Source of the DNA: a virus
Length of the DNA: 40,793 nucleotides
Virus record (IMG/VR): IMGVR_UViG_3300020204_000143
Coordinates: 1-40,793 of that record
Strand: one strand, 5' to 3'
The translations under genes and the position numbers were made by a program. This document shows, piece after piece, positions 2,190 to 19,925 of this stretch (its first letter is position 1; each line of letters opens with the position of its first letter). A model generated the notes under the pieces. That model was not told the origin of the DNA, searched no databases, and saw nothing but the letters and a program-made list of their open reading frames with translations.

Positions 2190-3569
2190 TTAGATGTTTA
2201 TCAATTTAAATTTTTTCTTTGGTTTCCAATTTTCAAATGCACCTTCCATACCTTCAATGAGTGCATCACACATAGCTTCTCTACTTAACTTACCTTCTCC
2301 CATCATCCACTTTCTACCTTTCAATCCAGCAGCTTTTCTATCTTCTATTGGAGTTTGATACCATTCCATAATCAAAGGCGATACATCTTCAAAATCAATT
2401 CTATCATCAAAAATATATGGTGTTGGAACTGAACCCGTTGTTGAACGAACTGGCCAAATTGGTTTTACCCAATCTCCCCAAACGTGTGTATTCTTTTTAT
2501 GCTTATTGTGTAAAGAACCAATTTCTAAATAATCTTCTGCAGTTAATAATTTACCACTACCCTTAACTCTGAATCCACATTGGTCTTGCAAACCACCCGT
2601 TACAGTTGTAATAATTGGAGTACCAGCCATAATTGATTCAGCTGTACCTAATCCAAACCCTTCGTTTGATGATAACATAATTGTTACATCTGCTAAATTG
2701 TAAAGATAGTTTAGTTCTTCTTCTTTTAGTTTTTCATCTACAAATATGATATTTGCATCTGGCATCAAATGTTCTGCTGTTTTTATCAAATCAGTACCAT
2801 GTTCTTCAACAGGTTTTGTTTTCATAACTAAAACAACCTTATCTCTTTTTTCTTCCGGTAATGCTTCTCTAAATGCGTTGAATGCCAACATCACATCAAT
2901 AGGCTGCTTTCTTCTAATATTTCTATTTGTCCAATAAAGAACAAATTCATATTCTTTATCGCCAAATATTTTATTTTTGAAATCAGTTGGAACATCTACG
3001 GGTTTATAGATATCTGAACGAATACCATGTGGTACATAACTTACTTGCCAATCTTCTGGCTTAGTCCAATGTTTTTCTTTATCCCAACTCCAAACTCTTT
3101 TAGTAATACCATAAGTTTGTTTTGAAATACATCCAATCCAATCACAACTTTCGTAGTAATCTCTATTGTATTTTGGGTCTGGCAAATCATCCCAAATATG
3201 ATAAAAGAACAAAGGTACTGATTGGCGGATTTCATGTTCAATCTCATATAACCAAATCCAATATCTTGGGTCGGTGAAGTGTAGAATTGCATCCGGTTTT
3301 TCCATCATTAACAATTGACGAATAATATCGGCATTTCCATATCCATCAAACGGATATATTTTAACATTAGCATCTTCAACTCCTGTTTGCTTTCTAACGT
3401 CCTCATTTAAATCGAATATTTTTCCTGCTTCTGGGTGTTTGATTGCTGCACCTAATTGTACCCAATCGTACTTATGTACTGTACCTAAAACCAATTGCTT
3501 TGATACATTAGCTATACCACTAGCCATTCTAAGGTCATCGGAGAGTAACAGAATTTTCTTTTTTGCCAT
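2190..3569 (-). CDS. GT4-family (GT-B fold) glycosyltransferase
   Basis: A 459-residue group 1 glycosyltransferase. The N-terminus (KKKILLLSDDLRMASGIANV) is the first strand and loop of the acceptor domain. The C-terminal donor domain shows SSNEGFGLGTAESIMAGTPII, with the E-x7-E pair that contacts the nucleotide sugar. An aromatic-rich linker (YWTNRNIRRKQP) precedes the donor domain, where GT4 enzymes usually begin their second Rossmann fold. The start is preceded by an A-rich AAAAAGTT leader, the common pattern in this genome. It is followed after one base by the second GT4 gene, which suggests a two-step sugar addition, but substrates cannot be read from sequence. Confidence 0.85.
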   Translation of the reverse strand: MAKKKILLLSDDLRMASGIANVSKQLVLGTVHKYDWVQLGAAIKHPEAGKIFDLNEDVRKQTGVEDANVKIYPFDGYGNADIIRQLLMMEKPDAILHFTDPRYWIWLYEIEHEIRQSVPLFFYHIWDDLPDPKYNRDYYESCDWIGCISKQTYGITKRVWSWDKEKHWTKPEDWQVSYVPHGIRSDIYKPVDVPTDFKNKIFGDKEYEFVLYWTNRNIRRKQPIDVMLAFNAFREALPEEKRDKVVLVMKTKPVEEHGTDLIKTAEHLMPDANIIFVDEKLKEEELNYLYNLADVTIMLSSNEGFGLGTAESIMAGTPIITTVTGGLQDQCGFRVKGSGKLLTAEDYLEIGSLHNKHKKNTHVWGDWVKPIWPVRSTTGSVPTPYIFDDRIDFEDVSPLIMEWYQTPIEDRKAAGLKGRKWMMGEGKLSREAMCDALIEGMEGAFENWKPKKKFKLINI

Positions 3570-7753: not shown

Positions 7754-10309
7754 TTAAAAGGAAAAAAACTTTTTAGCAGTTTGAGCTTCCGTACTAGCTT
7801 TTTCCCACTTTAAAGCTTTGTAGAAATCATCAATTTTGTTCTCTAATTCTGCTTTGTAAATCTCATCTCTATCTATATATTGCTCTACAAAATCCATAAC
7901 CTGTTTAGGGTCATTGTAATCTTTGAATGCTAATCCTTCTAATCCTAATGGGTTTGTTTTTAGATATACCCACTTTACTTTATCACCATCTCTGATTGGT
8001 TCGTGTTTATATGGACAGTTAAAGAATTTTAGTAATCGGTTATATGCTATTCCGGCTTTGACGTGTGCAGGTGTTCCTTTTTCAAAATCTGCAATTGATT
8101 TACCTTTAACCCAACTACCATTATCATATTTACTCAATTCTTTTATTGCCCCACCTTTAGCGATTTTATTTACAGGTAAAATAGCCATTGATTTTTTGAA
8201 GTTCAATAATGATTCATCTATTTCTGAATTAGATTTACTCATTAGAATATCTTTTAATAACTTAGCCATAAAGTCCTGAAATGCTTTGGGGAATGAAGAA
8301 CGAACAACATCTAATCCCTTAACATCTAACTTATCACAGGGGATACCATTTTTCAAAATCATCCATTGTGCGTATCTTTTCTTTGCTACCCAAAATCCAG
8401 CCTTGCTGATATACTCTTTCTTAATCTCAAAACGATGCTTATCTTTTGGAATAAAGAAAAACCTTTCTGCTAATAAATCATAAAACTTATTTAGGAATGA
8501 TTGAGTTTCTTCAGCAATAGTATTAACTTCTTCAGCCATTCTATTCTGGTCAAATTCTTTGTAGTTTGGATAACGATGCTTCACCAATGGTTCAGCCATC
8601 ATATAGATAGAATCAGTATCTATATAAACATTGTAGTCGTCTCTTGTTCCGAGTTCTTTCCAGTATTTGATGTTTGCCATTTCTGCTGTCTTTTTGATAA
8701 CAGTTTGGCCGGTGATTGTAACCGCTTCTGCATTATCAATATCATAAAACCTAAAGGCAGGCAGACCAAGAACACCATACATAGAGTTAAGAAGAATCTT
8801 CTGAACCAATTGTCTCTTTGCATAAAATTCGTATTTTTCTGTATCTTTTTCTTCTCCGTATTTTTTTTCTAACTTTCGGAATTCAACTCTTTTTTGAAAC
8901 CAATCATTTAGGATATCAGCAATAAGACCAGGCTTATCCTGATTATATAATACTCCATTTGCTGCTATTCCTAAATTACTATCTTTAATTACTTCTGATA
9001 ATTCAGTTCTATTGTATTCGTATGTACTACCCTCTTTACCAACTAATTTATAAACCTTATCTTCTCCTCTAATCCATTCTTCAGCATCCCAATTCTGAAC
9101 TTTACCAATCTTTGTTTCTGGTGAAATGTTTAATGTCATAATGATTGATGGATATAGTGATGTTAAATCCAAATCATATATCCAATCATACTTACCAACG
9201 ATGGGTTCTTTTACATATGCTCCAATAAACTTTTCTTCGTTGTTATCTCTAAGAGCTTGCATTCTTTCCTTCCTATCTTTTGGTTTGTTGGTTGCCACCA
9301 ATCTTTTCTTTTTCAGATATCCCAAACACGCCCCTTCTAACCACTTTGATGAAAAAATGTAATCTTCATATGGAACGTAGCCCGCGTGGCAAACTGCTCT
9401 ACATAATTCAATGAACTGAAGTTTGTTATCCATTGCTACAACCAAGTCCACATCGACAATGTTATATTCAATGAATTTTTCCAAATCAGTTTCAAATAGG
9501 TCATCTAAATTACCTTCATACTCTACTTTACCTCTACCCAATTCTTTTGTAGCGATATAGTTCAATGTATAAGATGATTCTAATGTGTATGTGTATGTTT
9601 TGTAAAGATTGAGATAATCTAAAATACTTACACCACCAAATTGCCATTTATCTCTATAAGGTGAATAGAATGTCTGTCCTACGGGCGATAATCGTTTAGC
9701 GTTACCCTCACCGCATATATTTTTGATACGATTATAAAGATACGGAATATCAAAGAAGTCGATGTTCCAACCTGTTAGAATTGTTGGATTAACTTCTTCG
9801 TAATAGTTTATAAAGGATTGTAATAGATTTCGTTCATTATCAAAGATATGAATCTTAGCCTGTCTACCATCTTTGTTAAACTGATTGGTGTTATTTTTTA
9901 TCTTTCTTTCTTTATCTAAAACGAATACATCGAATAATTTGGTAGCTCCATCGTATGCGGCAATTGATGTAATTTCGTTTTTAGCTTCTTTTGTGTTTGG
10001 TAGGCCTGATACCATTTCTACCTCAATATCAAATGTAAGAACTCTATGTCCATTTGATGGTAAATCACTATCGTATATATCAACTAAGACTCTCGTAGTT
10101 TCGGGTACATCCGATTCGAATAAATCTTCAGCTTCATCCTTTTCCCACTTAGATATTTTGGTCAATTTATCACCATACATTGAACGGAATTCTCCATATG
10201 GGTCTTTTTTATAAGCATATTTACGATAAGGAAAAGTTGTATATCCTCTTTCATCATCCCATAAATGTATCAGGTTTCTTTGCCTTTCGTAATAAATGTT
10301 TTGATACAT
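7754..10309 (-). CDS. 43: Family B DNA polymerase, T4 gp43-like
   Basis: An 851-residue replicative polymerase with proofreading. Exo I is TFDIEVE (D94, E96), Exo II is GWNIDFFD (180-187), and Exo III is YNIVDVD (282-288). The polymerase motifs are DLTSLYPSI (motif A, 381-389), KILLNSMYG (motif B, 504-512) and YIDTDS (motif C, 562-567). All catalytic acids are present. T4 gp43 is 898 residues, so the protein is complete. The C-terminal end KKFFSF resembles the clamp-binding tail of T4-type polymerases. It follows a glycosyltransferase gene with a one-base overlap and is followed by the clamp promoter. Confidence 0.97.
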   Translation of the reverse strand: MYQNIYYERQRNLIHLWDDERGYTTFPYRKYAYKKDPYGEFRSMYGDKLTKISKWEKDEAEDLFESDVPETTRVLVDIYDSDLPSNGHRVLTFDIEVEMVSGLPNTKEAKNEITSIAAYDGATKLFDVFVLDKERKIKNNTNQFNKDGRQAKIHIFDNERNLLQSFINYYEEVNPTILTGWNIDFFDIPYLYNRIKNICGEGNAKRLSPVGQTFYSPYRDKWQFGGVSILDYLNLYKTYTYTLESSYTLNYIATKELGRGKVEYEGNLDDLFETDLEKFIEYNIVDVDLVVAMDNKLQFIELCRAVCHAGYVPYEDYIFSSKWLEGACLGYLKKKRLVATNKPKDRKERMQALRDNNEEKFIGAYVKEPIVGKYDWIYDLDLTSLYPSIIMTLNISPETKIGKVQNWDAEEWIRGEDKVYKLVGKEGSTYEYNRTELSEVIKDSNLGIAANGVLYNQDKPGLIADILNDWFQKRVEFRKLEKKYGEEKDTEKYEFYAKRQLVQKILLNSMYGVLGLPAFRFYDIDNAEAVTITGQTVIKKTAEMANIKYWKELGTRDDYNVYIDTDSIYMMAEPLVKHRYPNYKEFDQNRMAEEVNTIAEETQSFLNKFYDLLAERFFFIPKDKHRFEIKKEYISKAGFWVAKKRYAQWMILKNGIPCDKLDVKGLDVVRSSFPKAFQDFMAKLLKDILMSKSNSEIDESLLNFKKSMAILPVNKIAKGGAIKELSKYDNGSWVKGKSIADFEKGTPAHVKAGIAYNRLLKFFNCPYKHEPIRDGDKVKWVYLKTNPLGLEGLAFKDYNDPKQVMDFVEQYIDRDEIYKAELENKIDDFYKALKWEKASTEAQTAKKFFSF

Positions 10310-11466
10310 TAACCTATTAATTTTTTATGTAGTATAGAAAACATTTTTGAATCGTTTTCTGATAATTCGTTTGCTCTTTCCAATGCTATTCTTTCTCTCT
10401 CACATCTATAAGTATCGTCATCCAATATCTTATCCAACAATACAAATAATTCTTTCTGATTATTGAAAAATATACCATTCGGGTCTATCTCTCTATAACA
10501 ATCTGAATTATGGAAAATCATTGGCGTGCCGTTCATCATACAATCGGTGGCAGATACACTCCATCCATAATTTGTTTGTAGTGGCTGTATTCCAACTTTG
10601 CACAATTGTAATTTATTATAATATGCTTGCTTTGATGCTTCTTTTGTAGTATCAAACCAAGGTAATTTTTTATCACCATTTTCGTATTGAGGCACCCATA
10701 CCTTAATATCAGGTCTATGTTTTTTATATGCTTCCATATATCCAACAAACTTATTATAATTTTTATATCCAGCGGTTCGGTGATTGAATACAATTATATT
10801 ATGTTTATTTGGATTTGGTTGTTGCAATACTTTATCCTTTGCTACGCCCAAATTCCAAACAACTAATTTTTTATCAAGCATTTCTAAAGTAGAATCACTA
10901 AAGAAAGTCTTTGCTTCTTCGATTACTTTATTTTTTTGGTCTTGCGTATTAAGAAAGCAAGTATCCATTTGTAGTACACCTAATATTTCATTTGGTAACC
11001 ACAACTCTTTTGCCTTACCAGGTCTATTATCCACACCATTACAATGACTCATTTCCCACCAATGACAATAACCTATAATCTTAGTATCTGCTGTTTTCTT
11101 ATATCTACCCACTACACTCCAATCAGGCAAATGAGAATAGATAATATCGTAGTCAGTTTCTTTCATTACTCTGACTAATTCTTCCGGTGGAAAGCATCTT
11201 TGGTTCATCATATCACCAGGTATAGGAACTTCAATTTGCTTTACATTGTCAAGCATATTTAATTTTGCTGATGGATTTCCTTTGGGCATTATTACATACC
11301 AAAAATATTCACCATAGTTTCTTAGTGTACTAATGTGATTAAAAATAACATCAACGAATGAATCTTTTTCAATTTCCCTATAATTGGTTATATTGGGTAT
11401 GACCAATACTTTTCTTGCCGTATTATAATTAATTGTTGTTTCCCAAAATTTCATGTTATCTACCAA
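10309..11466 (-). CDS. GT-B glycosyltransferase
   Basis: A 385-residue protein with a two-domain GT-B layout. The first half has Rossmann strands (KVLVIPNITNY; DIIYSHLPDWSVVG). The second half begins with IIVFNHRTAGYKNYNKFV and continues with KVGIQPLQTNYGWSVSATDCMMNGTPMIFH, the donor-binding region of GT4-like enzymes. The first glutamate of the usual E-x7-E motif is absent, so donor contacts differ from the two GT4 proteins at the left end. It overlaps the DUF4338-like gene upstream by 11 bases and abuts the polymerase, so it is co-expressed with DNA-modification and replication genes. That supports, but does not prove, DNA as acceptor. Confidence 0.75.
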   Translation of the reverse strand: MVDNMKFWETTINYNTARKVLVIPNITNYREIEKDSFVDVIFNHISTLRNYGEYFWYVIMPKGNPSAKLNMLDNVKQIEVPIPGDMMNQRCFPPEELVRVMKETDYDIIYSHLPDWSVVGRYKKTADTKIIGYCHWWEMSHCNGVDNRPGKAKELWLPNEILGVLQMDTCFLNTQDQKNKVIEEAKTFFSDSTLEMLDKKLVVWNLGVAKDKVLQQPNPNKHNIIVFNHRTAGYKNYNKFVGYMEAYKKHRPDIKVWVPQYENGDKKLPWFDTTKEASKQAYYNKLQLCKVGIQPLQTNYGWSVSATDCMMNGTPMIFHNSDCYREIDPNGIFFNNQKELFVLLDKILDDDTYRCERERIALERANELSENDSKMFSILHKKLIG

Positions 11467-12685
11467 CTTCTTTTAGGTAATTTTCTTTCATACCTTCCCA
11501 TGTCATTCCAATCGCATCTACATAAAATAGAACTTCTGGTTTTATTTTACTTTCTTCAAACAATTTCTCATATCGTTTGATTGCTTTACCTTTCCACCAT
11601 TTTAAAGTATATTCATTTCCTTTCTCAAATTTATCTTTTAGAATCAAATCTTTCTCTTCAATTTTATCACATAAGAACTGATTTCCATTCTCATACATTT
11701 GAGCAAAGTAAACACCTCTTTGGAATCCGTGGTCATATTCATTTCCTTTAATTCCCAATTCTTTAAAAATTGCCTGAATAATCTTTTGTTTGATACCACT
11801 AACAGGTCCGTTCTTTTCGTAACCCATATTAGCACCATTACGTTCTCTCTCATCCATAATATTTTTCTTATACCATTCTGGTCGATTTTCTTTTAACCAT
11901 TGATGCCACGGGTCATATACCTCATCATCAGGCTTTGTAGAAATCCTACCTTTGGATTCTCCTAATGTTTTGAAATGTGGAATACCATTGTATTGTGAGT
12001 GAATACCATACAAAGATGTTGTACCAATACCAATCAATGGATTATCATATTTTTGTTTCCAATAATCTCTAATTTCAGGTGCAGTTGCCAATGCTGCGAT
12101 TAACTTACCACCTAAAAAGTTATATCCAAATGGTTGAGTAGATACGATGGTTGTAGCAATCGATGTACAATTTAATTTACCTTTCTCAAACTTATCTTCT
12201 TTGGTCCAACCAATGTATTCATCTCTTACGCCTAATGATGTAATATCTGAACCTAAACATATCTGTCCTAATATTTTTCCACTTGTTCTATCCTTAACAT
12301 ATATTTTTACGTTTCTACCAGGATTAGCCTGAAATTCCATTGTATGAATTAATTTACGAATTTCAGTCCAACGAGTAGATTCTTTTGGGTCATCATCTAC
12401 AATTTCCACATAGGGGTCTATTGATTCAATTTCTTTAATTGTTAATTCTTTATCGAAGATATTGGTTGGTTTCCACAATGAATCGTAATACGATTGTAAT
12501 ACGGGCAATCGTTTCATATTAGAAACTCTATCCATATTCCATTCTATCCATTTTTTGTACAAAGTTTGTTCTTGTACTGACATTGTTTTAAGATAGTTCA
12601 AATTATCAATGAACTTCTTTTTCATTATATGATAGTCAAATGTGGCGGTATTTGTTTCTTCGCCAGTATCCCAAAATTTATTCAT
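11456..12685 (-). CDS. DUF4338/Druantia DruA-like protein, probable DNA-modification enzyme
   Basis: A 409-residue protein. Residues about 125-250 resemble the DUF4338 (DruA) pattern: SGKILGQICLGSD, then RDEYIGW (154-160), then PFGYNFLGGKLIAAL, then DYWKQKYDNPLIGIGTTSLYG, then YNGIPHFKTLGESKGR. DruA is known from the Druantia anti-phage system, but stand-alone relatives occur in phages. No DruB-DruE partners are present, so this is not a Druantia operon. The rest is charged and helical. It follows directly after two Mom-like genes and has its own promoter, with the ATG four bases past the -7 box. A role in DNA base modification or anti-restriction is inferred from context. Confidence 0.6.
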   Translation of the reverse strand: MNKFWDTGEETNTATFDYHIMKKKFIDNLNYLKTMSVQEQTLYKKWIEWNMDRVSNMKRLPVLQSYYDSLWKPTNIFDKELTIKEIESIDPYVEIVDDDPKESTRWTEIRKLIHTMEFQANPGRNVKIYVKDRTSGKILGQICLGSDITSLGVRDEYIGWTKEDKFEKGKLNCTSIATTIVSTQPFGYNFLGGKLIAALATAPEIRDYWKQKYDNPLIGIGTTSLYGIHSQYNGIPHFKTLGESKGRISTKPDDEVYDPWHQWLKENRPEWYKKNIMDERERNGANMGYEKNGPVSGIKQKIIQAIFKELGIKGNEYDHGFQRGVYFAQMYENGNQFLCDKIEEKDLILKDKFEKGNEYTLKWWKGKAIKRYEKLFEESKIKPEVLFYVDAIGMTWEGMKENYLKEVGR

Positions 12686-12689
12686 ATTA

Positions 12690-12721
12690 CAAATATACTA
12701 AAAATAATTTAGATTACCAAA
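12690..12721 (-). promoter_or_regulatory. Bacteroidetes-type promoter for the DruA-like gene
   Basis: TTTG (12721-12718), a 20-base spacer and TATATTTG (12697-12690) on the minus strand. The -33 box lies inside the last codons of the Mom-like gene, within the small palindrome at 12716-12728. Only TAAT separates the -7 box from the ATG at 12685, predicting a leaderless message. Confidence 0.75.
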
Positions 12722-13517
12722 ATTTGGTATCTATTTCGGTTTCAGGTGCGATTGTTTCCCAATGCTGAATATCTTTATTGAAAGCACGGGTATCTTTTGG
12801 ATAAGGTCTGATTTCGTGTTTGAAAGATTTCATAATTGCTTTCTTTTCCTTCTTATCAGCTGTAATAATTTGTAGGTATCTATGCTTTGGTGGTTCTTCC
12901 CTTCTCCAAAATTCTTTATATCCTTGCTTTCCAATTTCTCTACGAAGATGTTCTAAGTTACCACTACCCCATTTTGTAAATACAGTCCTACTATGAATCC
13001 ATTTGTAAGGGTCATTTGAAAGGGAAATACCATAATTTGGCATTAACGCAATATCAGTATTTAACCCCTGATATATCCAATTAGTTGCTTGGTAAATACC
13101 ACCCAAATGCTCTTGTCCATTATCGGCATAAGAAATAAGTGTTTTGATTTCTTTATCATTTTCTCTGAACCATTTGAATGATTGCCCCATCGCATATGAT
13201 TCGATATTAGAACCATACCCATCATCACAATAAAGACGAGTTAATTCTAATACATTATCTTTTGTAAGTAAATCTGAAATAGAAGTTGCTGCTCTAGCTC
13301 CAACGGGAAATCCATAAACTATACATCCAATCAATTTGGTATCTTCACCCAAAGCATTGGTTGTATCCATTTTGTAAAAAATACCTAATGCATATCTACA
13401 AGCAGTCCAGGCGTGAGTATAGTGTTTCTTTACGATAATATCTTTTGCTACATCTTTACCAATTGGTGCAATAAATACTTTTGATGTATCGCAATAATTT
13501 TTACCTTCTTCTTTCAT
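12714..13517 (-). CDS. Mom-family DNA adenine hypermodification enzyme, paralogue A
   Basis: A 267-residue GNAT-fold protein of the phage Mu Mom type. Mom converts adenine in DNA to a N6-carbamoylmethyl derivative and blocks many restriction enzymes. Visible features are the basic start of the fold with HY (32-33), KLIGCIVYG (61-69), VLELTRLY (89-96), ISYAD (128-132) and the signature EHLGGIYQATNWIYQG (136-151). The C-terminal 100 residues are basic (RREEPPKHRYLQI) and may bind DNA. It aligns closely over its length with the neighbouring upstream gene, four bases away, so the two arose by tandem duplication. Substrate specificity is unknown. Confidence 0.85.
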   Translation of the reverse strand: MKEEGKNYCDTSKVFIAPIGKDVAKDIIVKKHYTHAWTACRYALGIFYKMDTTNALGEDTKLIGCIVYGFPVGARAATSISDLLTKDNVLELTRLYCDDGYGSNIESYAMGQSFKWFRENDKEIKTLISYADNGQEHLGGIYQATNWIYQGLNTDIALMPNYGISLSNDPYKWIHSRTVFTKWGSGNLEHLRREIGKQGYKEFWRREEPPKHRYLQIITADKKEKKAIMKSFKHEIRPYPKDTRAFNKDIQHWETIAPETEIDTKFW

Positions 13518-13521
13518 AACC

Positions 13522-14277
13522 TTAATTTACTGGTTCTAATTTATGTATTTCTTCTACAAATTCCTCGCTCACTTTTGGATATTTTAGTGATGGGTATTTT
13601 AAATTTTTTAATAACTTTTTTCTTTCTTTTCCGTTAATCAAAATATAAATATAACGATGTTTACGTGGTTCTTTTTTAATCCAAAATGGTGATGTTACCA
13701 TTGTTTGAATTATCTTTGGGTCATTCGTTCCATACTTCACATATGAAGTTCTACTATGATGCCATTCATCAATTTCACTCCATTTGAAAGACCAACTATC
13801 GTTTGGTCGGATTCGATTACCTTGATATATCCAATTCGTTGCCTGATATACAGTTCCTAAATGTCCTGCTTTCGGGTCTGAATAAGATACTAATGCTTTG
13901 ATGTGTGGTGCGTTTTCTCTTAACCATTGGAATGTTTTACCAACAAACCAACTCTCAATATTACTACCATACCCATCAAATACAAATAAACGGGTAAGTT
14001 CTAAAACTTCCGTTCTATCTAATGTTTCACAAATAGATGCGCCAGAGTGTCTACCCACCGGGTCTCCATAACATGCTACACCAATAAGTTTTTCGTTTAC
14101 ACCACCAAAGAATTTATGTTCATCGTTTGATAAATAAAACAATCCAATCGCATATGATACTTTTGTCCATATACCACTATAATGATTGTTTACGATAATA
14201 TCCTTAGCTACGTCTTTACTTATTAATCTAATAGAAAGTTTGGATATATCACAATATTGTTTACCATCTACTTTCAT
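13522..14277 (-). CDS. Mom-family DNA adenine hypermodification enzyme, paralogue B
   Basis: A 251-residue Mom-like protein. It shares with paralogue A the opening KDVAKDIIV, HY (32-33), KLIGVACYGDPVG (63-75), VLELTRLF (91-98), GYGSNIES, VSYSD (130-134), GHLGTVYQATNWIYQG (138-153), HSRTSYVKYG and the basic EPRKHRYIYI. In the motif before the signature it has SYSD where A has SYAD. All core Mom positions I can see are kept in both copies, so neither looks like a pseudogene. Divergence between the copies suggests different sequence contexts or substrates, or a hetero-oligomer. It follows a 52-residue ORF after four bases. Confidence 0.85.
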   Translation of the reverse strand: MKVDGKQYCDISKLSIRLISKDVAKDIIVNNHYSGIWTKVSYAIGLFYLSNDEHKFFGGVNEKLIGVACYGDPVGRHSGASICETLDRTEVLELTRLFVFDGYGSNIESWFVGKTFQWLRENAPHIKALVSYSDPKAGHLGTVYQATNWIYQGNRIRPNDSWSFKWSEIDEWHHSRTSYVKYGTNDPKIIQTMVTSPFWIKKEPRKHRYIYILINGKERKKLLKNLKYPSLKYPKVSEEFVEEIHKLEPVN

Positions 14278-14281
14278 TAAA

Positions 14282-14440
14282 TTACTTTGTACATTCTTCT
14301 AAAGCTATTTCATATGCATCTACTTTATCCATTTTAGGGTCCTCTTGCATAAGAGCTTTAGCCTTTTTAATAACTTCTTTTCTAACACCATATCCATGTG
14401 CTTCCATTAGGATTTCTTCAATGATTTCTTCGTTTGACAT
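14282..14440 (-). CDS. Small acidic helical protein, 52 residues
   Basis: An ATG at 14440 opens a 52-codon frame ending TAA at 14284-14282. The start is MSNEEIIEEILMEAHGYGV and the end is IALEECTK. It is rich in Glu and Lys and should be mostly alpha-helical. It fits tightly between the HTH gene (three bases upstream) and Mom paralogue B (four bases downstream), and the frame fills the gap exactly, which supports a real gene. I do not recognise a family. Position suggests an accessory to the modification genes, but nothing in the sequence proves this. Confidence 0.65.
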   Translation of the reverse strand: MSNEEIIEEILMEAHGYGVRKEVIKKAKALMQEDPKMDKVDAYEIALEECTK

Positions 14441-15992: not shown

Positions 15993-16256
15993 TTACTTTA
16001 AATTTTCATTTATTGCGTTAATATATGCTATTTTTGATGATACACCTGTGAATCTTTCAACTTCTTTACCATCTCTTTCAATGATTACCGTAGGTACTGA
16101 ACGTACACCATATTTAGTTGCTTCTTCATAAGCAATATCTACATCGTATTCTTCAAACTTTACATTTGAAAAATTACTCTTTATTTCATTCATTACGGGA
16201 GCCAATGCTCTACAAGGCCCACACCATACTGCCGAAAATTTCTTAACTGTTACCAT
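15993..16256 (-). CDS. Thioredoxin
   Basis: From the ATG at 16256 the protein has 87 residues: VKKFSAVWCGPCRALAPVM, so the active site WCGPC lies at 11-15, then the cis-proline loop GVRSVPTVII. A longer frame from 16286 adds ten residues lying inside the PhoH gene; the AAAGAAAGAAC stretch before the internal ATG supports the shorter form. Thioredoxin reduces the disulfide formed in class I ribonucleotide reductase each cycle. NrdA and NrdB lie nearby in the same run of genes, with only PhoH and a small ORF between, so this is likely the RNR reductant. The gene overlaps phoH by 14 bases. Confidence 0.9.
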   Translation of the reverse strand: MVTVKKFSAVWCGPCRALAPVMNEIKSNFSNVKFEEYDVDIAYEEATKYGVRSVPTVIIERDGKEVERFTGVSSKIAYINAINENLK

Positions 16257-16968
16257 TTGTTCTTTCTTTAAATTCATCGTATGCATCCAATAGGGAGTCT
16301 ACAACTGGATGTCGATGATTGGTTAATAATGTTTGCGAATCCATCTCTTTAATCTTTTTTGCTACTGATAAAAGAAATTTAAATCCACTATCTCCTTTAT
16401 ATTTTAAATCTACTTGCTGTGTATCACCACAAACAACCATTTTGCTTCTCAATCCCAAACGAGATGTAATCATTTCCATTTGGTCGTTTGTGCAGTTTTG
16501 TGCTTCATCTACGATGATAAAACTATCTAAGAATGTTCTACCTCTCATAAATGCAAGCGGTACAATTTCTACATATCCATCTTCCAATATCTTATCAATT
16601 TTATCTTTGTTATATAATTGATAGAAGTTAGAATATATTGGCTGCATCCACGGCTCCATTTTTTCACGAAGGTCACCAGGTAAAAATCCAATCTCTTCTT
16701 TACTTACAGTAGGACGAGTTATTATAATTTTTTGAACAGTCTTTTTAAATAACATATCCAATGCAACCTGACAAGCTAAAAGTGTTTTACCACTTCCTGC
16801 TTTACCACTTAATATTGTAATAGCGTTATTTAAAATCTTTTCTTTTGCTTCTTTTTGCTCTTCATTTAATTGAATTTGGAACTTAATAGGTCCTTTTGGT
16901 TTTTCAATTTTTTCTTCTCTAATTCTATCTGTCAACTCTTTGTGTTTTGCTGATTGATTTTCGCCCAT
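16243..16968 (-). CDS. phoH: PhoH-like P-loop ATPase
   Basis: A 241-residue PhoH-family ATPase. Walker A is GKAGSGKT (55-62), followed by TRPTVSKEEIGFLPGDLREK, a segment diagnostic of PhoH. Walker B is IIVDEAQNC, followed by MVVCGDTQQVDL. An extended charged N-terminus of about 30 residues precedes the core. PhoH is common in marine and gut phages; it is an RNA helicase-like ATPase of uncertain role, regulated by phosphate in some bacteria. It is followed by the thioredoxin with an overlap of 14 bases. Confidence 0.92.
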   Translation of the reverse strand: MGENQSAKHKELTDRIREEKIEKPKGPIKFQIQLNEEQKEAKEKILNNAITILSGKAGSGKTLLACQVALDMLFKKTVQKIIITRPTVSKEEIGFLPGDLREKMEPWMQPIYSNFYQLYNKDKIDKILEDGYVEIVPLAFMRGRTFLDSFIIVDEAQNCTNDQMEMITSRLGLRSKMVVCGDTQQVDLKYKGDSGFKFLLSVAKKIKEMDSQTLLTNHRHPVVDSLLDAYDEFKERTNGNS

Positions 16969-16983
16969 AAGATTTTTTTATGA

Positions 16984-17109
16984 CTATTTTCCTCTACCTG
17001 ATTTTTTGATTTGTGTTTGCTTTGGTACATTTTTGACAGGAACTGGCTTTGCTCCTTTAGTATTCAAAGGCTTTTTTTCGTTTTTGTTTCCAAAGAATTT
17101 ACTGCTCAT
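16984..17109 (-). CDS. Small, very basic protein, 41 residues
   Basis: The ATG at 17109 opens a 41-codon frame ending TAG at 16986-16984. It reads MSSKFFGNKNEKKPLNTK and ends KKSGRGK. Lysine, proline and asparagine dominate and no acidic patch is seen, so it is probably disordered and may bind nucleic acid. The frame fills the gap between nrdA and phoH and is preceded by an A-rich run like the other starts here. I know no homologue. Composition alone could arise by chance in a short frame. Confidence 0.55.
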   Translation of the reverse strand: MSSKFFGNKNEKKPLNTKGAKPVPVKNVPKQTQIKKSGRGK

Positions 17110-17123
17110 AGTTTTTTTTTAAA

Positions 17124-18902
17124 TTATCCATCACAACTTAAACATTCGGGATCCATTGCTTTTGCTGCAATATCTCCTCTTAATACGGATTCGGTTCTCA
17201 TATAGTAAAGTGTTTTCACGCCTTGCTTCCACGCCTCTAAATGAATCTGATTAATCCATTTTGGCTCTGCCGTAGCAGGAAATGCTAAATTTAATGAAAC
17301 TGCTTGGTCAATATATTGTTGTCTAATTCCAGCTTGTCTTACTAAATCTAATTGGTTGATTTCTTTAAATGTTTTAAATACATCTTTAATGGGAGTGCAA
17401 TTATGCTTTGGTTCGTTTTTAACTTCTTTACATTCCATTACTTTACCATCCACATAACACCATTCATCTAAGAAATCTAACCCTTGTACTGAACCACCAT
17501 CTACTAAAATTTGGTCCCATACTTCTTTTGTGTTTTTACCAACTTTACGAAGTACTCTTTCTAATTCAGGGTTTTTTCTAATGAAAGTTCCTTTAGATGT
17601 TTGTTCCGTAAATACGTTAGCTGCCCAAGGTTCAATACCACTACTTACATTGCCACTCAATTTAGAGTTTGATACCGTAGGTGCTACTGCTCTTAGGTGA
17701 GTATTTCTGAAACCACTTTCCTTACACCAAAGTGGTTCACCATATTCTTTTGCTAAATCTCTACTTGCTCTTTCAGATTCAATTTTAATTTGAGAGAAAA
17801 TTTTACGAGTTTCGAATTGTGCAGTCAACCCCTCAAATGGTACACCTCTTTGTTGTAAATATGTATGCCATCCCAATACACCCAGTCCCAATGCTCTACC
17901 TCTTTCTGCTGAACGTACTGCATTTTCAAACCCTTTCATATTCTTAGCTCTTTGCAAGAATTCTTCTAACACACCATCTAAGAATACCGTAGATGTATAA
18001 ACCAAATCAGTATCTTTCCACTCATCGTATTTTGCTAAGTTTAGGGAACTTAAACAACAAACGAATGAATGCTGCTCATCGGTATGTAAAACTATTTCAG
18101 AACAAATATTAGTCATATGAACTTTCAATCCGTTCTTCTTATACATTTCAGGATTGTGTTTGTTAACATTACCTTTAAACATAATATAAGGCTCGCCTGT
18201 AGCTTTTCTTTTCTGAAGTAACTTACCCCACTTTCTACGAGCTTCGGAGTCGCCTTCCTCCAATTTAGCCATAAATTTATCACTTATAACTACACATTGG
18301 TGCATATTAAGTGCTTGGCGATTTACATCTCCCTTTGGTTCTCTAACCTCTAAAAAATCATCGAAATCTTTGTGGTCTATTTTTATATTTACCGATGCTG
18401 CTCCTCTACGAACACTACCCTGATTTGTAGCGAGAATTGTTGAATCATATATTTTAATAAACGGAACTACACCGTCCGATGTACCATTCATTGTAATTTT
18501 AGTACCAGCTGGTCTAATCATATTAACACCAATACCAACACCACCACCATGCTTTGCTAACAACATTAATTCTAAATTCTTTGAACCAATTTCAAAGATA
18601 CTATCACCAACATCAATACCAAAACACGATATAGGTAGTCCTCTATCAGTACCAGTATTTGAAAGGACAGGCGTTGCTAAACACAACCATCCTTTCCAAA
18701 TATAATCAAAAAATTTTGTAGCCAATTGTGGTTTTTCTAATCTTTTTGCAACTGCAGTAGCTACTCTCCAATATGCATCTTTTGGCTTTTCTCCTGCCAA
18801 CAAATATCCTTTTGATATCGTTTTAACATAGATTTCTGTATTTCCCCACGATGGAAAATCTACATCTAATTCCCAGCCTAATTCTTCTCCGTAATTTTTC
18901 AT
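17124..18902 (-). CDS. nrdA: Class I ribonucleoside-diphosphate reductase, large subunit
   Basis: A 592-residue catalytic subunit. The redox cysteine is C93 in PISCFGI, the radical-site motif NICSE (265-269) supplies the catalytic C267, and C282/C283 lie in VCCLSSLNL, matching the second redox position. YYMRTESVL near 565-575 has the paired tyrosines of the radical path. The C-terminal swinging pair is C587/C590 (ECLSC). It lacks the N-terminal ATP-cone of the E. coli enzyme (761 residues), so overall activity may not be shut off by dATP. It reduces NDPs to dNDPs with NrdB, encoded nine bases upstream, and is re-reduced by thioredoxin. Confidence 0.95.
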   Translation of the reverse strand: MKNYGEELGWELDVDFPSWGNTEIYVKTISKGYLLAGEKPKDAYWRVATAVAKRLEKPQLATKFFDYIWKGWLCLATPVLSNTGTDRGLPISCFGIDVGDSIFEIGSKNLELMLLAKHGGGVGIGVNMIRPAGTKITMNGTSDGVVPFIKIYDSTILATNQGSVRRGAASVNIKIDHKDFDDFLEVREPKGDVNRQALNMHQCVVISDKFMAKLEEGDSEARRKWGKLLQKRKATGEPYIMFKGNVNKHNPEMYKKNGLKVHMTNICSEIVLHTDEQHSFVCCLSSLNLAKYDEWKDTDLVYTSTVFLDGVLEEFLQRAKNMKGFENAVRSAERGRALGLGVLGWHTYLQQRGVPFEGLTAQFETRKIFSQIKIESERASRDLAKEYGEPLWCKESGFRNTHLRAVAPTVSNSKLSGNVSSGIEPWAANVFTEQTSKGTFIRKNPELERVLRKVGKNTKEVWDQILVDGGSVQGLDFLDEWCYVDGKVMECKEVKNEPKHNCTPIKDVFKTFKEINQLDLVRQAGIRQQYIDQAVSLNLAFPATAEPKWINQIHLEAWKQGVKTLYYMRTESVLRGDIAAKAMDPECLSCDG

Positions 18903-18911
18903 AACTTTAAT

Positions 18912-19925
18912 TTAAAATATATCATCCCAATTTTCACCTTCTCCTGCTTTTGAATAATCAGTTGGTCTGATTGCGAAGAAGTCGGTATGTGTTACACCGC
19001 CTGTAAGATGATAAAACCAATCTAATTCGGCTGCTTTGTTTTCATTGTATTCAAAATAATCATCACCACCTTTCATTGGATTATAACCTAATTCTGCTAA
19101 CTTTTCATTTATTCTTTTTGTAATGAATTCTTTTAAATCATCTGCTTTTAGATTTTCTAAATCACCCATTTCAAAAATCTTATCAATAAATTTATGTTCT
19201 AAATCTCTAATGATTTCTGCTGCCTTGTAGATATCTTCTTTTGCTTCTTCTAATAATTCAGGAAATTCTTCACACATATGTCTGAATAATTGACAACCCA
19301 TTTTAGAGTGAAGTGATTCATCTCTAACACTCCACTTCATTTGTTGTCCAATTCCTTTTAATAGGTTTCTCATTTGAAAACTATAAAGAACTGCAAATGA
19401 TGAATATAATGCTACACCTTCCGCAAATGCCGAAAAGATAGCAAGTGAACGAGCAACTTCAACTCTAGCCTTATGATTCTTTTGTAAATCTTTAGGAGTC
19501 CAATCAGCAGTAGTATTAGTTAATAATTCAAATCTTTCCTTCATTGTTTCATCGTGAAGGAATCCTTCGAAATCATCCAACCCTAATGTTTCATTTAGGT
19601 ATGAATATGCTACTGAATGTATTGTTTCTTGCGAACCAAATGCCATTGCCATTTGTCTAATCTCATGCTTTGGAAACCATTTAGTAACCATACCTGTCCA
19701 ATAATCTGATACTGCGCATTCGGTTTGAGCAAATCCTAAAAGAATATTACCAACTAAATGTTTTTCCTCTTTTGATAAATTCTCATTCCAATCCTTAACA
19801 TCTCCCTGCATTGGGATTTCGGTATGTAACCAAAAAGCCTGCATCTGCTTTAACCATCCATCCGTATAATATTCTGGATACTCAAACGGCTTGAATGGGA
19901 TTCTTTCTGTAAATAATTTACTCAT
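18912..19925 (-). CDS. nrdB: Class I ribonucleotide reductase, small (radical) subunit
   Basis: A 337-residue ferritin-like diiron protein. Metal ligands are E69 (QTECA), E100 and H103 (QETIHS), E169 (FAEGV), E203 and H206 (RDESLHS). The radical tyrosine is Y107, four residues after H103. E69 stands where E. coli NrdB has D84, a change also seen in some radical-variant R2 proteins, but here the tyrosine is kept. The protein generates the radical used by NrdA. A TTTG with an AATTTGG flank lies 46 bases upstream of the ATG, but no good -7 box accompanies it. Confidence 0.95.
   Translation of the reverse strand: MSKLFTERIPFKPFEYPEYYTDGWLKQMQAFWLHTEIPMQGDVKDWNENLSKEEKHLVGNILLGFAQTECAVSDYWTGMVTKWFPKHEIRQMAMAFGSQETIHSVAYSYLNETLGLDDFEGFLHDETMKERFELLTNTTADWTPKDLQKNHKARVEVARSLAIFSAFAEGVALYSSFAVLYSFQMRNLLKGIGQQMKWSVRDESLHSKMGCQLFRHMCEEFPELLEEAKEDIYKAAEIIRDLEHKFIDKIFEMGDLENLKADDLKEFITKRINEKLAELGYNPMKGGDDYFEYNENKAAELDWFYHLTGGVTHTDFFAIRPTDYSKAGEGENWDDIF

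Follow-up and report, generated by a model that had tools for sequence, protein, structure and literature searches.

Two Mom-family genes for putative DNA-modifying enzymes kept side by side in a viral replication module

Hypermodification of DNA by a GNAT enzyme is rare, and Mom, which is an example of it, is poorly understood with respect to both sequence specificity and co-substrate. Phage Mu has one mom gene, which is expressed late and is served by a zinc-finger translational activator, Com. The base made by Mu Mom, N6-methylcarbamoyl adenine, shields Mu DNA (PMC8281217; PMC6483171). Unlike Mu, the stretch of DNA analyzed here (the window), a 40.8-kb fragment of a large bacteriophage of aquatic origin in the form of IMG/VR virus record IMGVR_UViG_3300020204_000143 with 30-36% GC and nearly all of its genes on the minus strand, has two mom paralogs within a replication module and a helix-turn-helix (HTH) gene in place of Com (Table 1). 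Why should a virus keep two neighboring copies of such an enzyme?

Table 1. Window features discussed in the text, with the matches on which their assignments rest
Feature	Coordinates	Strand	Evidence or remark
Two clear glycosyltransferases, same module	917-2188; 2190-3569	-	2190-3569 also matches GT4-conflict (PF20706)
Family B DNA polymerase	7754..10309	-	PHROG 262 2.7e-183
Glycosyltransferase family 4-like protein, 385 aa	10309..11466	-	Pfam Glyco_transf_4 7.8e-5, below curated cut-off
DruA-family (DUF4338) protein, 409 aa, after momB	11456..12685	-	PF14236 4.5e-20; PADLOC DruA 1.2e-20
momB, Mom-family GNAT transferase, 267 aa, ATG; transcribed second	12714..13517	-	PF25680 1.3e-41; PHROG 1384 9.8e-45
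momA, Mom-family GNAT transferase, 251 aa, ATG; transcribed first	13522..14277	-	PF25680 5.1e-44; PHROG 1384 5.2e-53
52-aa ORF (orf52) between HTH gene and momA	14282..14440	-	Matches mainly among close relatives
Small helix-turn-helix protein, 76 aa	14444..14674	-	Pfam HTH_7 in relative L118 (3.6e-5); family alignment
Thioredoxin, PhoH and ribonucleotide reductase genes, upstream of mom pair	15993..18902	-	Pfam for thioredoxin and PhoH; gene order kept in relatives

A preliminary description of this locus had proposed two full-length Mom-family genes four bases apart, and this is borne out both by the open reading frames of momA and momB, which are separated by positions 13518-13521, and by their matches to PF25680 and to PHROG 1384, a family named 'Mom-like DNA modification protein'. 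The PF25680 scores of 142.9 and 150.8 bits lie far above the cut-off of 27.1, and the matches of both proteins run from profile position 2-3 to 202 of 202. These are the only two Mom genes in the window, and their products are 44% identical across 259 columns. A phmmer search against the PDB matched the structure of Mu Mom (8BV8) with MomA at 1.8e-9 and with MomB at 6.8e-4, while an AlphaFold model of MomB (pLDDT 88) superimposed on 8BV8 with a Z-score of 20.9 over 184 residues (2.9 A), the next GNAT protein reaching 12.1. The Mom-type GNAT fold is thus assigned to MomB by its model match and to MomA by its phmmer match; profile and structure comparisons, which had been proposed as a check for placement outside the Mom/GNAT family, leave both proteins inside it. 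Judged by sequence, momA and momB encode intact Mom-family proteins.

The signatures noticed earlier recur in both proteins as H32 Y33 (HY), ELTRL, SYSD or SYAD, and (G/E)HLGxxYQATNWIYQG, with the amendment that the residue preceding HLG is E in momB instead of G. Six positions of Mu Mom (H48, Y49, R101, S114, D139 and Y149, in the 231-aa numbering) are present in MomA and MomB alike and in 97-100% of the sequences within each of the two clades described below. Among them, we take H48, Y49, R101, D139 and Y149 to be catalytic, going by mutagenesis of Mu Mom and by their family-wide conservation; S114 is the position occupied by Ala in the chain of 8BV8, an entry titled 'inactive mutant S124A', and its counterparts in the window copies are S109 and S107. 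In a 32-member alignment of all paralog types the six positions are invariant, save the D (30/32). Loss of active-site residues from one copy, which the preliminary description had singled out for checking, is accordingly not seen at any of these six positions, and both copies are apparently catalytically competent. The window Moms hence share family, fold and catalytic residues with the Mu enzyme.

To place the pair in a wider context, viral contigs were searched with each window Mom, yielding 159 loci, of which 120 are distinct; as most contigs were selected through Mom similarity, prevalence figures drawn from them are biased upward. In 90 of the 120 distinct loci both genes are present, with momB always following momA on one strand, and the arrangement is therefore not due to chance. 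The spacing varies: most frequent are a 17-nt overlap, found in 32 distinct loci, and a gap of 4 nt, found in 20, and in about 30 loci the genes lie further apart, with 160 to 2454 nt between them. In 11 distinct loci, one of them a 238-kb contig with a single Mom, momB is present without momA, and the role of momA must therefore be dispensable in some hosts. Phylogenetic analysis recovered a momA clade of 95 sequences (support 0.99) and a momB clade of 101 sequences (0.97), which are unmixed sisters joined with a support of 1.00. The claim that the copies are diverged is thereby confirmed, and a recent duplication is ruled out by the two old sister clades together with 19 alignment columns that are conserved differently in them, next to 69 that are conserved alike. 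Two of these fixed differences directly flank active-site residues, namely S/T following HY and S/A preceding the conserved Asp. No gene conversion between momA and momB is apparent. Both genes are under strong purifying selection (median dN/dS of 0.071 for the momA and 0.077 for the momB clade), which together with the intact catalytic residues rules out a dead or decaying copy, in agreement with the initial impression that neither gene looked dead.

Among 17 related contigs of at least 90 kb, exactly two Moms are present in 13 and three in two; of the remaining two contigs, one has a single Mom and the other, of 148 kb, has none. Tandem expansions comprise three Moms in L126 (5001-7252) and L135 (3270-5506) and four in L158 (1816-4904), and a distant, shorter Mom type precedes the pair by about 4 kb in L026 (1014-1613), L038 (922-1521) and L154 (1055-1654), its profile matches extending beyond the stop codons in two of the records. 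The extra copies of the relatives match the Mom profile and retain the active site. The Moms of isolate phages, such as Polaribacter phage P12002L (42-46% identical to the window copies) and Listeria phage LP-114, belong to the same family, PHROG 1384, and likely catalyze the same reaction, but each of their genomes has just one copy, with a single Mom place in 256/256 and 298/298 records with a detectable Mom. Bacterial genome contigs have one Mom in 63 of 65 loci. The Mom-like enzymes of jumbo phages, for which momylation is predicted, resemble the window proteins as Moms of large phages but are reported to be typically fused to a nuclease domain (PMC7824862), whereas the window copies are stand-alone and tandem. 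A table on the LM41 prophage of Clostridium clostridioforme assigns the neighboring genes 33 and 34 both to PHROG 1384, and the two calls are not discussed there (PMC11318856); this gives two adjacent Mom-like calls in one element, as in the window, but the pair could be one split gene, and the table line is a weak precedent. Another candidate second Mom, gp09 of pPM_01, which lies beside the Mom of this Proteus phage, was rejected, as its sequence is devoid of any Mom signature.

The pair is embedded in a T4-like replication module, recognized by Pfam and PHROG profile matches and by sequence assignment, which adjoins tail genes. The members of this module around the mom genes include the family B polymerase, clamp loader, ribonucleotide reductase, PhoH, thioredoxin, a DnaB-type helicase, UvsX and SSB; the large subunit of the reductase was assigned from its own sequence and from the adjacent small subunit at 18912-19925. 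No tRNA was found in the 40.8-kb window. The closest relative of the window polymerase is that of Microcystis phage Mel-JY01 (49%), and no Mom is annotated near the polymerase gene of that phage. Contigs of the MAG 'bacterium TMED198' (L171, L172, L316) carry Moms 40-47% identical to momB together with a long DruA gene. It is possible that a phage related to the window virus was binned with this bacterium, which may provide a clue to the host.

Of the 103 distinct loci that could be scored, at least 74 have an HTH gene no more than 120 nt ahead of the first mom gene, whose start it usually overlaps; among the other 29 some, including the window, have orf52 between the two. The small com gene upstream of mom in Mu is a parallel in position only. 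The HTH protein is possibly a regulator or a DNA-binding partner of the Mom proteins. On the other side of the pair, a glycosyltransferase-like gene adjoins momB or the DruA-family gene in many relatives; a functional tie of the family 4-like gene to the Mom genes is uncertain, and the glycosyltransferases of the window possibly glycosylate modified bases.

Several explanations for the two copies may be weighed against this background. The preliminary description had raised the prospect of a heteromer, which could consist of a catalytic and a recognition subunit or of a mixed dimer replacing the Mom homodimer. The adjacency and common overlap of the genes, the fixed differences between their products, the two chains in the Mu Mom structure 8BV8 and the standing of Mu Mom as a homo-oligomer reference (PMC13232217) are all consistent with such a complex. 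However, both copies possess a full active site, unlike a typical pair of catalytic and regulatory subunits, and the genes are set apart by 160 to 2454 nt in about 30 loci. Because MomB does without MomA in the 11 loci mentioned above, including the 238-kb contig with its one Mom, the obligate form is disfavored, and we consider a heteromer on the whole unlikely. Identical catalytic residues and the tolerated loss of one copy would also suit two redundant enzymes of the same specificity that merely raise the dose, but the duplication is old, the clades are distinct with 19 fixed differences, gene conversion is not apparent and the order momA then momB is constant. As such long retention with fixed differences disfavors pure redundancy, we regard this explanation as quite improbable. 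Much the same low standing may be given to the proposal that the copies differ in the group they attach to adenine or work sequentially on one base: the two fixed differences directly beside active-site residues and the glycosyltransferase-like and DruA genes alongside speak in its favor, but every examined active-site residue is identical, and we know of no precedent for a Mom adding another group.

The same long retention with fixed differences, taken together with the loci that have momB alone, favors two specialized adenine-modifying enzymes working in parallel on different sequence contexts, a reading to which we assign a probability of about 0.5. Under this proposal a single old duplication would have given rise to momA and momB, both of which were then retained through specialization. 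Each would modify adenines of the phage's own DNA by a Mom-type reaction, as suggested by the Mu enzyme, and expression from the replication-module operon would allow new DNA to be marked in the course of replication. Each copy would most probably mark adenines in a different sequence context, and the combined marks would shield a larger share of the genome from host nucleases, if protection operates as it does in Mu. Read from the alignment, the 19 fixed differences reflect a divergence of function or of partners, and the retention of both copies side by side by related viruses suggests that they have different jobs; that sequence context, rather than the added group, timing or dose, is what separates them is the less well supported part of the proposal.

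The gene following momB belongs to the same family as the DruA protein of the Druantia defense system and the DruA-like genes of cyanophages (PMC12774648), scoring 72.4 bits against PF14236 (cut-off 27); of 17 related contigs examined for such genes, 15 carry them. The top VIA matches of its structural model (m17b64999eca2, pLDDT 74) are nearly all GNAT enzymes with Z-scores of 9-10.2; the Mom structure 8BV8 comes first at 10.2, tied with other GNATs at 9.9 and below, and the E-values from Foldseek with this model are weak (6e-3 at best). The DruA-like protein is therefore predicted to adopt a GNAT fold. A Pfam scan of this protein returned no Mom family match, and a comparison of DruA and Mom profiles gave no match with a shallow alignment and a marginal one with a deeper alignment (P 7.6e-4, probability 25%). 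A specific kinship between Mom and DruA is thus suggested as a lead and not as a result.

In L025 (4274-5029), L027 and L039 (4273-5001) a short, Mom-sized DruA gene occupies the momA slot, and in L047 (3519-4250), L048, L147 and L151 a short DruA gene lies directly before momA; Mom and DruA may hence be interchangeable. The cyanophage DruA-like genes are likewise located in a replication cluster (PMC12774648), where they adjoin clamp-loader genes (L170 2707-3828, L333-L337), and one cyanophage relative carries the GenBank annotation 'methylcarbamoylase mom'. A Druantia system would be expected to have a DruE/YprA-type helicase beside DruA; among the annotated neighbors (Pfam, PHROG and sequence assignment) in the window, which is a fragment, no Druantia partner was noticed, and the phage DruA-like protein likely serves the virus. 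The consulted portions of the papers on the YprA helicase and on Phold give no activity for DruA. It is conceivable, if unlikely, that the two to four Mom paralogs, with different contexts or products, together with DruA-family GNATs that would themselves modify DNA and be interchangeable with Mom, make up a multi-enzyme set for adenine modification.

As momA and momB are natural paralogs that share an active site and differ at 19 fixed positions, they render the specificity of Mom enzymes directly testable. The conserved DruA-family neighbor, with its predicted shared general fold, likewise provides a testable idea for the defense protein DruA: were such a multi-enzyme set to exist, the DruA of Druantia would also be a nucleic-acid transferase.
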